Shown here: in pieces, positions 6,762 to 13,705 of the stretch
How positions within the stretch are numbered: position 1 is the stretch's first letter
Layout of the letters: each line of letters begins with the position of its first letter
Assembly: GCA_003563895.1 (NCBI GenBank)
Contig: PWTK01000078.1
Coordinates: 1-33,177, forward strand
Length of the DNA stretch: 33,177 bases
Origin: Syntrophomonadaceae bacterium
Lineage (GTDB): Bacteria > Bacillota > Dethiobacteria > DTU022 > UBA8154
Direction of reading: 5' to 3'
Position numbers and translations under genes: made by a program
The notes under the pieces: model-generated
Seen by the model: only the letters and a program-made list of their open reading frames with translations
Told to the model about the DNA's origin: nothing
Databases searched by the model: none

Positions 6762-7688
6762 ATGGTAAAAGGCTCACCCTATTTTCAGCGATTGCAGTGG
6801 CACTTTGGAAAATGGAGCGGGTTTGTTGTTCTCTCTCTTTTCCTGGCAGTTTCCTTTTTGGTTGTGGGCGGCTGCGGCCCTTTTTTGTCTGAAGAGAAAA
6901 CAAAACTTCCGCAAGAAAGGGGCAGGGAAAGAGATTATATCATTCTGGCCACCACCACCAGCACTTATGATTCGGGCCTTTTGGACGAACTGCTCCCAGC
7001 TTTTGTCGAAGAATACGGCGTAGAGGTGCGCGTGGTTTCGCAGGGGACGGGGCAGTCCCTGGAGAACGGCCGCCGGGGAGACGTGGATGTTCTTCTCGTC
7101 CACGACCGACCTTCGGAGCTTCGGCTGGTGGAACTCGGCTATGTGATTGACCGCCGAGATATTATGTATAACGACTTTGTTCTGGTGGGGCCTGCCGGAG
7201 ATCCTGCCGGCGTACGAGACTTGGAAAAAGTTGCAGATGCGTTTTCCGCCATCGCTTCAGGCGAGCATCTCTTTATATCCCGCGGAGACGATTCGGGCAC
7301 CCACCGCACCGAGCTTGCCATCTGGGGAAAGACCGGCAGGAGCGATTTCGGCGAATGGTATCTTTCGGTGGGACAGGGTATGGGCCAGGCGATGAGCATA
7401 GCATACGAACTGCAGGCCTACACGCTCTCGGACCGCGGCACCTTTCTCACTCTGAAGGACACTTTGGATTTGGAGATTCTTCTGGAGGAGGATCCTCTCC
7501 TTTATAACCAGTACGGGATCATGGCTGTGAATCCCGAAAAACACCCCCATGTGAACTACCGGGATGCGGCCAGACTGGTCGGTTTTATGGCCTCCCCGCG
7601 GGGCCAGGCGCTGATCAGTGGATTCCGGGTAAACGGGGAAAGCCTCTTTTTTCCGGGCTGGAGCGGGACAGAAGAGCAGCAGCGGTGA
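6762..7688 (+). CDS. tupA: Tungstate ABC transporter substrate-binding lipoprotein
   Basis: This 308-residue protein has a signal sequence with a long hydrophobic stretch ending VVGGC, a lipobox that would anchor it to the outer face of the membrane. The mature part shows TupA hallmarks: ATTTSTYDSGLLDELLPAF near residue 66, GTGQSLENGRRGDVDVLLVHD, NDFVLVGPAGDPAG and FISRGDDSGTHRTE. In characterised TupA proteins, Thr/Ser of TTTS and Arg/Thr of the SRGDxSGTH region contact the tungstate oxyanion. ATG 6762 has GGAAGGAG upstream. Unusually, 478 bases containing a MITE-like element separate it from tupB. WtpA or PBP-like phosphate proteins are less likely because of the TTTS signature. Confidence 0.92.
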   Translation: MVKGSPYFQRLQWHFGKWSGFVVLSLFLAVSFLVVGGCGPFLSEEKTKLPQERGRERDYIILATTTSTYDSGLLDELLPAFVEEYGVEVRVVSQGTGQSLENGRRGDVDVLLVHDRPSELRLVELGYVIDRRDIMYNDFVLVGPAGDPAGVRDLEKVADAFSAIASGEHLFISRGDDSGTHRTELAIWGKTGRSDFGEWYLSVGQGMGQAMSIAYELQAYTLSDRGTFLTLKDTLDLEILLEEDPLLYNQYGIMAVNPEKHPHVNYRDAARLVGFMASPRGQALISGFRVNGESLFFPGWSGTEEQQR

Positions 7689-8166
7689 AGGCGACGCTGC
7701 CAGCCGACCGGTCTCTTTGCCGCATTTTCGTTCCTGGCTACTCCCGAGCACTAGAAAGAAAGTGGACCGTCAATAAAACATACCGGGTTGTCCTGCAGCG
7801 GAAAATAGCGGTTATCGTTGCCATGGGGACGTTTCGAGCGTCACCGAAGCGAAGCGGAGGGATAGGGGGCAATCCTCTGAAAGAGGTGTATCCCCTCCCC
7901 ATACTTTAAAGGGAAGACGATGGAACCGTCCCCTATGGCTGGCGTTGAATAAAAGATTTAAGATATTCTTTCGCAGTAGTCTTAGTTCTTGGAAGGCAAA
8001 TACAAACAAACCATTACAGCTGCGTTGAATTTCATGGTTCAATCTTCAACCGGAATATAAGCAAATCGAGAACAAATTTGCTCCACCGGACACTCGCTGC
8101 CAGCAGGCCCGAAAGCTGCCGGGGCAGCGTGGCCGGTAATAATTTTCTCCAAAAAACAAGCGGGGA
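7689..8166 (+). other. Enlarged tupA-tupB gap
   Basis: These 478 bases separate two genes of one transporter. They contain MITE copy A (7820-7939); the remainder (7940-8166) has no gene, clear promoter or terminator. Two short GCGTTGAAT repeats occur at about 7942 and 8024. Whether tupBC is read from the tupA promoter or separately cannot be told. Confidence 0.5.
7820..7939 (+). mobile_element. MITE-like element, copy A
   Basis: This 120-bp sequence has imperfect terminal inverted repeats (left GCCATGGGGACG, right end reading GCCATAGGGGACG on the other strand). Its interior, GTCACCGAAGCGAAGC through CTCTGAAAGAGG, recurs at 9695-9798 and, inverted, at 19991-20104. It encodes nothing. It sits between tupA and tupB, so it enlarges what is normally a tight operon junction. 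It could be mobilised in trans or be a REP/REPIN-type repeat. Confidence 0.75.
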
Positions 8167-8874
8167 GTGAAAAAAACCTTGCTCCAGGGAATAGCAGAGG
8201 CATTTTATTTAATTCTCACCTTTGATCCCAAACTCTGGGAAATCGTGCTGCTTTCCATGACAGTATCCGGGCTGGCCGTGGTGCTGGGTGCCCTGGTGGG
8301 GATTCCCCTGGGAGCTTACCTGGGCCTGAAACCGGAAAGACAGACCCGTCTGGTTAGCAAACTCCTCTATACCCTGATGGGGCTACCGCCGGTGGTGGCC
8401 GGCCTGATCATCTACCTGCTGCTGTCCCGCAGCGGCCCGCTGGGTGTGCTGGAACTGCTCTATACCCCAACGGCCATGATCATTGCCCAGTTTGTGCTGG
8501 CGCTTCCCATCATTGCGGGCCTCACCATGATCGGGATCCGCAGCCGTGGGCAGGAAGTACAGGAGACGGCACGCACCCTGGGCGCTGGGAGATTTTTAAC
8601 AGCCTGGACGGTGGTCCGCGAATCGCGCATCGCCATTTTTGGGGCCGTAATCACCGGACTCGGGAGGGTCATCGCCGAGGTGGGTGCCGTAATGATGGTC
8701 GGAGGGAACATTGAGGGGGTAACCCGCGTTATGACAACGGCCATTGTGCTGGAGACCGGCAGGCGCAATTTTGAGCTGGCCCTCGGGCTGGGGATGGTGC
8801 TGCTGGTCCTTTCATTTATTATTAATTCGCTGCTTTACAATTTCCAGGGGGGAGGCAGAAACGGTGGCGGGTAA
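8167..8874 (+). CDS. tupB: Tungstate ABC transporter permease
   Basis: This 235-residue protein has five to six membrane segments and the binding-protein-dependent permease (EAA) loop, ETARTLGAGRFLTAWTVVRESR, near residues 135-160, which contacts the ATPase. It forms the membrane channel for tungstate. The GTG start at 8167 is set by the family's usual N-terminus (xLLQGIAEAFYLI); the ribosome site is poor (GGGGA immediately upstream), and a TTG at 8179 is an alternative. It overlaps tupC by 11 bases. tupA lies 478 bases upstream across a MITE-like insertion. Confidence 0.9.
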   Translation: MKKTLLQGIAEAFYLILTFDPKLWEIVLLSMTVSGLAVVLGALVGIPLGAYLGLKPERQTRLVSKLLYTLMGLPPVVAGLIIYLLLSRSGPLGVLELLYTPTAMIIAQFVLALPIIAGLTMIGIRSRGQEVQETARTLGAGRFLTAWTVVRESRIAIFGAVITGLGRVIAEVGAVMMVGGNIEGVTRVMTTAIVLETGRRNFELALGLGMVLLVLSFIINSLLYNFQGGGRNGGG

Positions 8875-9607
8875 CAGGTTCGTTCTGGAAATAAAAAATC
8901 TCTCCAAAGCGTATGATGATAAAGAAGTACTCAACATCGAACAGCTTTCTTTCAGGCAAGGGAAGATTTACGGGATCATCGGTCCCAGCGGCGCGGGAAA
9001 GAGCACCTTTTTGCGCTTGGCAAACCTCCTGGAAGCCCCTACAGGAGGGGTTGTAAACATTCACGGCAAGAGAGCTTTCCCCAACGGTGCCGATGCTTTT
9101 CGGCTGCAGCGTGAAATGACGCTGGTTTTTCAAAAACCGCTGCTTTTCAAAGCCAGCGTGAAGGATAATGTAGCCTACGGCCTTAAGGCACGCGGTTATC
9201 CCCGGGAAGAGATCCAAAAGCGTGTGAAGGCCTTACTGCAAAAAATGGGTTTAAATCAATTGGCCGAGCGGCGGGCCGACACCCTTTCCGGCGGAGAGGG
9301 CCAGCGGGTAGCCCTGGCCAGGGCCGTAGCTTTTGAGCCATCCCTGCTTTTACTGGATGAGCCGACAGCCAACCTGGACCCGAGCAATGTGGAGTTGATA
9401 GAAGAACTTATCTTGGACCTGAACCGCAGTGCGGGGATCACGATCATCATCGTGACGCATAACGTCTTTCAGGCCGAACGGATTGCTCACCAGGTTTTAT
9501 TTTTCTTTGAAGGACAGGTGGTTGAGGTAGGGGAAACAGAGCAGATATTCCAGGAGCCCAGGGATCCCCGTACCAAAGCATTTATCGAGGGAAAAATGAT
9601 CTATTGA
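8864..9607 (+). CDS. tupC: Tungstate ABC transporter ATP-binding protein
   Basis: This 247-residue ABC ATPase has all core motifs: Walker A GPSGAGKST (about residue 39), Q-loop VFQKPLLF (about 88), signature LSGGEGQR (about 143), Walker B LLLLDEPTANLDP and the switch histidine of IVTHN. The GTG at 8864 overlaps the end of tupB and has GGGGGGAGG upstream, so translation is likely coupled. It energises uptake with the TupB permease. It lacks the molybdate-binding C-terminal domain of ModC, consistent with TupC length. A MITE-like element follows 88 bases after the stop. Confidence 0.9.
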   Translation: MAGNRFVLEIKNLSKAYDDKEVLNIEQLSFRQGKIYGIIGPSGAGKSTFLRLANLLEAPTGGVVNIHGKRAFPNGADAFRLQREMTLVFQKPLLFKASVKDNVAYGLKARGYPREEIQKRVKALLQKMGLNQLAERRADTLSGGEGQRVALARAVAFEPSLLLLDEPTANLDPSNVELIEELILDLNRSAGITIIIVTHNVFQAERIAHQVLFFFEGQVVEVGETEQIFQEPRDPRTKAFIEGKMIY

Positions 9608-12646: not shown

Positions 12647-13447
12647 TTATCTTACAATGGCGGGCAGGGCTTTCTCGATTTTTTCCAGTTCTTCCCCGGT
12701 TAACCCGTCCTGGCGAAGCTCTTCCAACACTTCTCCTGGCCGCCCCCAGCCGCCGGCCAGCGCGTTCAGCCGGGCCGCGGCAGTTGAATCCACCAATTCC
12801 TCATAATCCGCATACCTGGCACGCAGGACATCCATCAGCTCCGGTCTGCCGCGCAGGTAATACTTCTGGTGATAATCTTCCGCCCGGTAAAATCGGGGGG
12901 CCGGTTCAATCTCCGTATGCACTTTCTTTTTGCCGCTTTCCAGCCGGGCTTTGGATTCCTGGGCCAGCCTTTTCTGTTCTTCATCGTGGTAGAAAAGGAC
13001 AGCCCTGTACTGCCTCGACCAGGACCTGCGGTAGGGGTTGTGGCTTTCCCAGAACAGTTCCAGCAGTTCCCCGTAAGAGATGCGTGATGGGTCAAAGTTC
13101 AGCTGAAGCGTTTCGGTGTGATCCCCGAGGGAAGCATAAGTGGGATTCGCCTTAACGCCTCCGGCATACCCGACGCGTGTCCGTATTACACCATCCAGCT
13201 GCCCGAACCGGGCATCAGGGCCCCAAAATCAGCCCAGGCCGAAGGTGGCCGTCTCTACCGTTTTTTCTTCGCCGCTGCCGCCGTTGAAAGGAATCCCGCT
13301 ATTATTCTCCATGGCACTTCGCTCCTCTTCGGTGTACCGGGCAGGCATCCCCCCGGGAGAGGCGGGGCCGCACCCCGCGGCAAACCCGAGCACCGCGCAC
13401 AATATGACAATGAGTGGAAAAAACGCCTGCCTGTTTTTTTTCATCAT
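12647..13447 (-). CDS. msrA: Selenoprotein peptide methionine sulphoxide reductase A, lipoprotein (UGA at codon 73 read as Sec)
   Basis: The 266-residue product is one frame interrupted only by TGA at 13229-13231, exactly at the catalytic position: TFGLG-U-FWGPDARF against the usual GGCFW. Past it the MsrA sequence is intact for nearly 200 codons (GYAGGVKANPTYAS, GDHTETLQLNFDP, RQYRAVLFYHDEEQ, EIEPAPRFYRAEDYHQKYY). A SECIS-like hairpin follows. The N-terminus (MMKKNRQAFFPLIVILCAVLGFAAGC) is a lipoprotein signal, so the enzyme would repair oxidised Met in exported proteins. No other Cys lies in the catalytic part, so no resolving Cys is visible. ATG 13447 has GAGGAG 12 bases upstream. A true nonsense mutation is the alternative. 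Confidence 0.9.
13200..13231 (-). promoter_or_regulatory. UGA-Sec codon and bacterial SECIS-like hairpin of msrA
   Basis: Nineteen bases after the TGA (13229-13231), TGCCC (13214-13210) pairs with GGGCA (13204-13200) around a GGTTC apical loop. A G-rich loop beginning GGU at 16-37 nt from the UGA is the known pattern for bacterial SECIS elements bound by SelB. Confidence 0.75.
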
Positions 13448-13705
13448 ATCAATATTGCACTCCTCTTGTCAACTTGTCAAACGTACAACTAAACAAAAAT
13501 TCGCCATAAAAAATATTATTCCTTCAATAATTAATTAAGTGGTTGAAAAAACGCTCGGCCCAAAAAACATAAGAAACGGCAAAAACTTGGGTTGTACCCA
13601 ACATCTCAATTCTCGTGCAAAAAGGCATTAATAATTCCAAAGCAATGAAAAATCCTTATGGTTCCGGTTGTGTCCCGGCCAAGGCTTCCCGGAAGCCGTG
13701 TGCTG

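Follow-up and report, generated by a model that had tools for sequence, protein, structure and literature searches.

The locus described here raises two linked questions: whether a TGA at the catalytic position of a methionine sulfoxide reductase A (MsrA) frame is read as selenocysteine (Sec), and in which compartment, or compartments, the resulting enzyme would act. The gene lies in a window of 33,177 nucleotides (the whole stretch of DNA that was analyzed) from a draft Syntrophomonadaceae genome, and an earlier note on this DNA had read it as an extracytoplasmic selenoprotein carrying a lipoprotein signal. The features relevant to both questions, all on the minus strand, are as follows.

12647..13447, minus strand: Sec-MsrA gene in its long form; with TGA translated as U it gives 266 aa, made up of a signal peptide, a linker, the MsrA domain and a C-terminal helical domain
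13370..13447, minus strand: predicted lipoprotein signal peptide with n-region MMKKNR (K/R), h-region and lipobox GFAAGC, matching a PROSITE-type pattern; codon of the lipid-bearing Cys26 at 13372–13370
13322..13328, minus strand: second Shine–Dalgarno sequence, AGAGGAG, 9 nt 5' of the internal ATG, with a duplex energy of −8.2 kcal/mol
13310..13312, minus strand: internal ATG, in frame at codon 46, from which a leaderless cytosolic isoform of 221 aa, with Sec as residue 28, is proposed to start
13229..13231, minus strand: putative Sec codon TGA at the MsrA catalytic position
13198..13216, minus strand: stem of the SECIS-like hairpin, with loop GGTTC at 13209–13205
12647..12842 (segment start approximate), minus strand: C-terminal segment aligned by phmmer, up to residue 260, with the helical domain of C. 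oremlandii MsrA; the model likewise has helices at the C-terminus

Coding Frame and Enzyme Family

Translation of positions 12647–13447 yields an MsrA protein on the minus strand, which the earlier note had left unstated, and none on the plus strand. The long form begins with an ATG at 13447, followed by a second ATG at 13444, and ends at the stop codon 12649–12647. The TGA is residue 73, in the context TATFGLG-U-FWGPDARFG, and 193 codons follow it, in agreement with the nearly 200 open codons counted previously. The product matches the Pfam family PMSR (PF01625) with E = 9.4e-43 and 146.5 bits (cut-off 23.7), as well as the NCBIfam profile TIGR00401 with 132.6 bits (cut-off 108.1), and thus combines the G(C/U)FWG motif with profile scores above the curated cut-offs, as a member of the MsrA family should. 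We note that a further NCBIfam entry, NF041383 (VPGUxxT thioredoxin-like (seleno)protein family), matches residues 63–169 of the 12647–13456 minus-strand frame, across the MsrA domain (E = 3.6e-10); this family may contain an MsrA-like part.

In a sequence search, the closest solved chains are all from Clostridium (Alkaliphilus) oremlandii MsrA (PDB 4lwj, 4u66; PMC4333827, PMC4479559), aligned to query residues 67–260. The two proteins share the GUFWG motif, the lack of a resolving cysteine, the essential C-terminal helical domain and 44% identity over the whole fold, and their catalytic residues are the same: Sec16, Tyr47, Glu55, Gln89 and Tyr90 of C. oremlandii MsrA correspond to the invariant columns 28, 59, 67, 101 and 102 of our alignment A2. 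An AlphaFold model of residues 46–266 (pLDDT 92.6) superimposes on 4lwk with TM-scores of 0.88/0.94 at 1.4 Å. Judged by its sequence, the window gene is a 1-Cys-type (here 1-Sec) MsrA of the C. oremlandii subfamily. The lipid-bearing Cys26 is the sole cysteine outside the signal peptide, which itself also has Cys17, so that the mature enzyme contains no other, as the earlier note had described; the absence of a resolving cysteine is not new, however, since C. oremlandii MsrA is already known to have one Sec and no Cys, and to be 20-fold more active than its Cys version (PMC4333827). What distinguishes the window gene from the C. oremlandii enzyme, which has 209 aa and is described without a signal, is the addition of a lipoprotein signal and a linker, while the proposed short form of the window gene, with 221 aa, is of similar length.

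Evidence for Selenocysteine at the Catalytic Position

In the alignment with MsrA homologues, the TGA falls on the catalytic Cys/Sec of C. oremlandii MsrA, in line with the earlier assignment, and among 98 genomes of the same class, 28 carry one TGA at the equivalent codon in a frame that is otherwise open. The nearest named relatives with the Sec-MsrA gene are metagenome-assembled genomes labeled Syntrophomonadaceae, from sediments. Beyond the class, public records hold TGA forms from Bacillota, Chloroflexota, Acidobacteriota, Planctomycetota, Synergistota, Spirochaetota, Thermodesulfobacteriota, Myxococcota and Deinococcota, and Cys forms mainly from haloarchaea, plus some Bacillota and Bacteroidota. 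None of the relatives compared combines a TGC at this codon with decay of the gene. As a separate observation, positions 9353–9853 of contig C116 in genome G049, which also has a Sec-MsrA, hold a second MsrA match; it is 43% identical, has an MsrAB-type frame and contains a TGA in frame.

The hairpin reported in the earlier note lies where it was placed, with its GGTTC loop beginning exactly 19 nt 3' of the TGA. Taken singly, its sequence has an unremarkable folding energy (z = 0.52), and an Rfam scan of the window returned no match, so it is the covariation of the stem that carries the SECIS claim: 39 cells are changed on both sides, compared to 13.1 ± 2.6 in shuffles, none of 500 of which reached this number, and the signal collapses when the pairings are slid along the stem. 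In exchanges of the G-C/U-A kind, Ala and Gln on the two sides both become Ser; in one of the G-C/A-U kind, an Arg/Gln codon changes together with a Phe codon that stays synonymous. All five inner pairs form in 43 of 49 distinct TGA genes compared to 1 of 24 Cys homologues from the same subfamily. One Halanaerobiaceae metagenome-assembled genome (L069:3028–3081) has a TGA Sec-MsrA that lacks the hairpin of the other TGA genes and is sister to Cys forms, perhaps through a different SECIS or a recent change.

The earlier note had also named selA, selB, selC and selD as the genes to look for in the genome. Three of these are present, with selB adjoining selA and a tRNA-Sec (selC) with a TCA anticodon; selD was not found in the 79.6% complete draft, where the weak matches look, by reading, like an AIR-synthase-type protein and ThiL. 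Across the class, selD occurs in 84 of 98 genomes, nearly always with a TGA of its own. The same genome also carries two further, adjacent genes with TGA at redox positions (L140:1204–2236, contig C89), of which one encodes the peroxiredoxin PrxU (DFTFVUPTE, 369 bits vs a cut-off of 270) and the other a 114-aa Spx/ArsC-family protein with the motif CVTTUSTC (UxxC).

Were the TGA instead a true stop, in a pseudogene or through a sequencing error, or decoded as some other amino acid, the undetected selD would fit, and this is the one point in favor of a reading that we regard as hardly credible. Against it stand the recurrence of the TGA across many phyla and in 28 genomes of the class, which also argues against a sequencing error in the window, the low dN/dS of the gene body (0.04–0.29), the covarying hairpin that Cys homologues lack, and the presence of selA, selB and tRNA-Sec. 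Pseudogene, sequencing error and stop-codon reassignment were each considered, and are rejected in view of the conservation and the SECIS. Reading of the TGA as Sec, as the earlier note had proposed, is thus well supported by this comparative evidence.

Predicted Lipoprotein Signal among the Relatives

An N-terminal hydrophobic signal is present in 24 of the 28 class genes, and 23 of those 24 have a Cys at the lipobox position (although in three of these 23, a proline at −2 leads strict patterns to reject the site); the remaining genes comprise three leaderless ones (family f6) and one that is cut by a contig end. The lipobox Cys column is invariant in 23 aligned relatives, and the part upstream of the enzyme is fast-evolving, with dN/dS values of 0.29–0.68 in seven pairs and 1.05 in one. 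Chloroflexota and Planctomycetota likewise have lipobox forms, and anchored or secreted forms are found elsewhere. The basic n-region, the lipobox and the invariant Cys support the lipoprotein signal that had been assigned earlier as genuine and common to almost all relatives in neighboring families, and the gene would therefore belong to an exported branch within an enzyme family that is already known.

A quick tree separates the C. oremlandii-like subfamily from classical MsrA with a support of 99, and implies at least 8 switches each between Sec and Cys and between exported and cytosolic forms; as many inner branches are weak, we claim no single origin. Among exported selenoproteins are NiFeSe hydrogenases and formate dehydrogenases. 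MsrA is listed in recent reviews of prokaryotic selenoproteins, whose relevant passages mention no exported or lipoprotein form of it (PMC13188914, PMC9312934).

A Putative Second Start within the MsrA Gene

The earlier note had concluded that the enzyme is extracytoplasmic. The export signal bears this out in part; however, the enzyme is probably not found solely outside the membrane, as a conserved internal start with its own Shine–Dalgarno sequence points to a cytosolic isoform. An internal start codon is present in 32 of 34 signal-bearing Sec-MsrA genes (28 ATG and 4 GTG/TTG). The ATG lies 25–36 codons 5' of the Sec codon in these 28 genes, and exactly 31 in 18 of them, with 27 codons in the window gene and usually 31 in its relatives, while the four GTG/TTG codons lie at 31–32 codons and have Shine–Dalgarno energies of −9.9 to −12.5 kcal/mol.

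The internal Shine–Dalgarno sequence falls in an acidic, E/G-rich linker, and part of its strength is thus due to amino acid composition, such that only the excess over synonymous shuffles counts. At the ATGs, the mean energy is −8.38, compared to −5.85 ± 0.40 in synonymous shuffles, of which the lowest of 300 reached −6.95. The window gene alone is not convincing (p = 0.23 against its synonymous shuffles), whereas the family is. When the criterion is a start codon with a Shine–Dalgarno energy of ≤ −7 in a 12-codon window, 18 of 23 Sec-MsrA genes qualify, compared to 7% of 126 other genes at the same loci (a small background set) and 3% of the 34 signal/TM genes.

Four leaderless relatives (L045, L047, L048 and L063) have Sec at residue 28–35, which places the internal start of the exported forms at their beginning. 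No internal start was found in the exported Sec-MsrA of Halobacteroidaceae, nor in two exported MsrA–MsrB fusions from Halanaerobium (L067 and L085), which belong to the C. oremlandii-like subfamily and have a catalytic Cys. An internal start can thus be lost.

These observations bear on how the two starts are used. If a cytosolic Sec-MsrA had gained an upstream signal and become exported only, the internal ATG and its Shine–Dalgarno sequence would be an unused relic, and its position, just where the leaderless relatives begin, is what a relic would show. We consider this unlikely. Between genomes, the synonymous sites of the gene body approach saturation (pS 0.4–0.8), and an unused Shine–Dalgarno sequence would be expected to have decayed over such distances, yet it exceeds the synonymous shuffles; moreover, the start codon varies only among ATG, GTG and TTG, and the exported relatives that lack an internal start indicate that it is free to disappear. 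Conversely, the internal ATG could be the true start and the upstream frame untranslated, giving a cytosolic enzyme only, as several genes have an internal Shine–Dalgarno sequence at least as strong as the one at the upstream start, and an automatic gene caller might pick the internal ATG. This we regard as very improbable in view of the in-frame signal peptide with its lipobox-position Cys invariant in 23 aligned genes, the dN/dS of the upstream part, which stays below 1 in all but one of eight pairs, and the same kind of hydrophobic leader in the MsrB genes described below. The reading that we favor, and consider probable on these comparative grounds, is that the one gene gives rise, through two starts, to a lipoprotein that is exported and to a selenoenzyme that lacks the leader and stays in the cytosol. 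Points against it are the fast evolution of the upstream part and the failure to find selD in the 79.6% complete draft.

A Parallel Layout in MsrB

The MsrB of the same genome (L142:1312–1899, contig C12) has a single Cys, a hydrophobic leader that begins at a TTG at 1312 with AAGGAG and, at 1447, an internal ATG whose Shine–Dalgarno sequence, GGAGGAGG, is very strong. The same layout is found in 18 other genomes of the class, such that the internal ATG is present in every one of the 19 exported stand-alone MsrB genes that could be read, with a mean Shine–Dalgarno energy of −10.28 compared to −6.88 ± 0.62 in shuffles, and in all but one of the 19 genes the MsrB part has a single Cys. The dual-start layout of MsrA, for its part, recurs in several phyla.

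With MsrB type assigned from frame length, stand-alone MsrB occurs in 20 of 28 Sec-MsrA genomes vs 14 of 70 others (p = 3e-6), and fused Cys-type MsrAB in 1 of 28 vs 26 of 70 (p = 4e-4), where both Fisher p values are optimistic, as the genomes counted as independent points are related. There is thus a tendency for Sec-MsrA to be the only MsrA of its genome, and as Sec-MsrA genomes mostly lack MsrAB and have stand-alone MsrB, the dual-start genes may be their main Msr genes. Taking the two enzymes together, we think it rather likely that MsrA (as a selenoprotein) and MsrB both use tandem starts to provide exported forms without a resolving Cys as well as cytosolic forms, and hence that each gene would serve repair in two compartments.

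Proposed Mechanism and Comparison with Known Systems

In the mechanism that we propose, SelB, aided by the downstream hairpin, would decode the UGA as Sec. Initiation at the first start would give a lipoprotein anchored at the outside of the cell membrane, where it could repair methionine-S-sulfoxide in surface proteins, while initiation at the second start, from its own Shine–Dalgarno sequence, would skip the signal and give a cytosolic enzyme; the stand-alone MsrB of the same bacteria would supply both compartments with activity toward the R-isomer. By analogy to C. oremlandii MsrA, the Sec would attack the sulfoxide, and reduction of the oxidized Sec, for want of a resolving Cys, would depend on an external thiol or selenol, or proceed via a transient Sec–Sec dimer. 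The C. oremlandii enzyme is recycled by glutaredoxin and not by thioredoxin (PMC4333827), and can go through a Sec–Sec or Cys–Cys dimer (PMC4479559). The sequences show the position of the TGA, the covarying hairpin, the Sec machinery, the lipobox and the conserved second start; we infer that both isoforms are made, where they would be located and how they would be reduced.

An exported Sec enzyme that has no resolving thiol, in a genome with no visible CcdA/DsbD, raises the question of what reduces the selenium outside the membrane. A search of the genome for the Grx, Trx, DsbD/CcdA and AhpC-TSA/TlpA families returned PrxU, the Spx/ArsC-like protein and one cytosolic Trx, which lies beside its own reductase. 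No CcdA/DsbD was found in the 79.6% complete draft, no exported thioredoxin in this incomplete genome, and no true glutaredoxin in the draft, where the single PF00462 match is the Spx/ArsC-family selenoprotein. Our guess is that, outside, the reactive selenium would be reduced by low-mass thiols or by sulfide.

Several known systems share parts of this arrangement. Streptococcus pneumoniae MsrAB2, which works with Etrx1/2 and CcdA1/2, likewise places an Msr on the outside of the membrane in a Gram-positive bacterium (PMC3914529). However, it is a fused Cys-type enzyme with a transmembrane anchor and a CcdA–Etrx electron path, and the cytosolic MsrAB1 is encoded by a separate gene (PMC3914529), whereas the window gene has Sec, a lipobox, proposed service of both places by one gene, and no CcdA/DsbD found in the draft. 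As in mammals and Drosophila, one Msr gene would serve several compartments; the animal MsrA and MsrB genes achieve this through alternative first exons and splicing (PMC1431549), and the window gene would do so through tandem translation starts on one bacterial mRNA. A similar layout underlies bacterial N-terminal proteoforms such as those of Salmonella OmpX and PagC, in which an internal start drops the signal peptide (PMC11005335). Those proteoforms were found experimentally in single species, while the present case is a comparative sequence signal from two enzymes that act in the same pathway, including one selenoprotein. If the second start is true, these genes would offer a clean case of bacterial dual localization by tandem starts. 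Annotation may already break the gene at the TGA, and a true second start would mean that a second protein is missed as well.

We did not find a redox partner common to the gene neighborhoods of the relatives. The commonest upstream neighbor in the order is a multi-pass membrane protein, which is missing at the window locus. Elsewhere in the window, positions 6762–9607 on the plus strand hold genes that, read by eye, resemble a tungstate/molybdate ABC transporter (binding protein, permease and ATPase).
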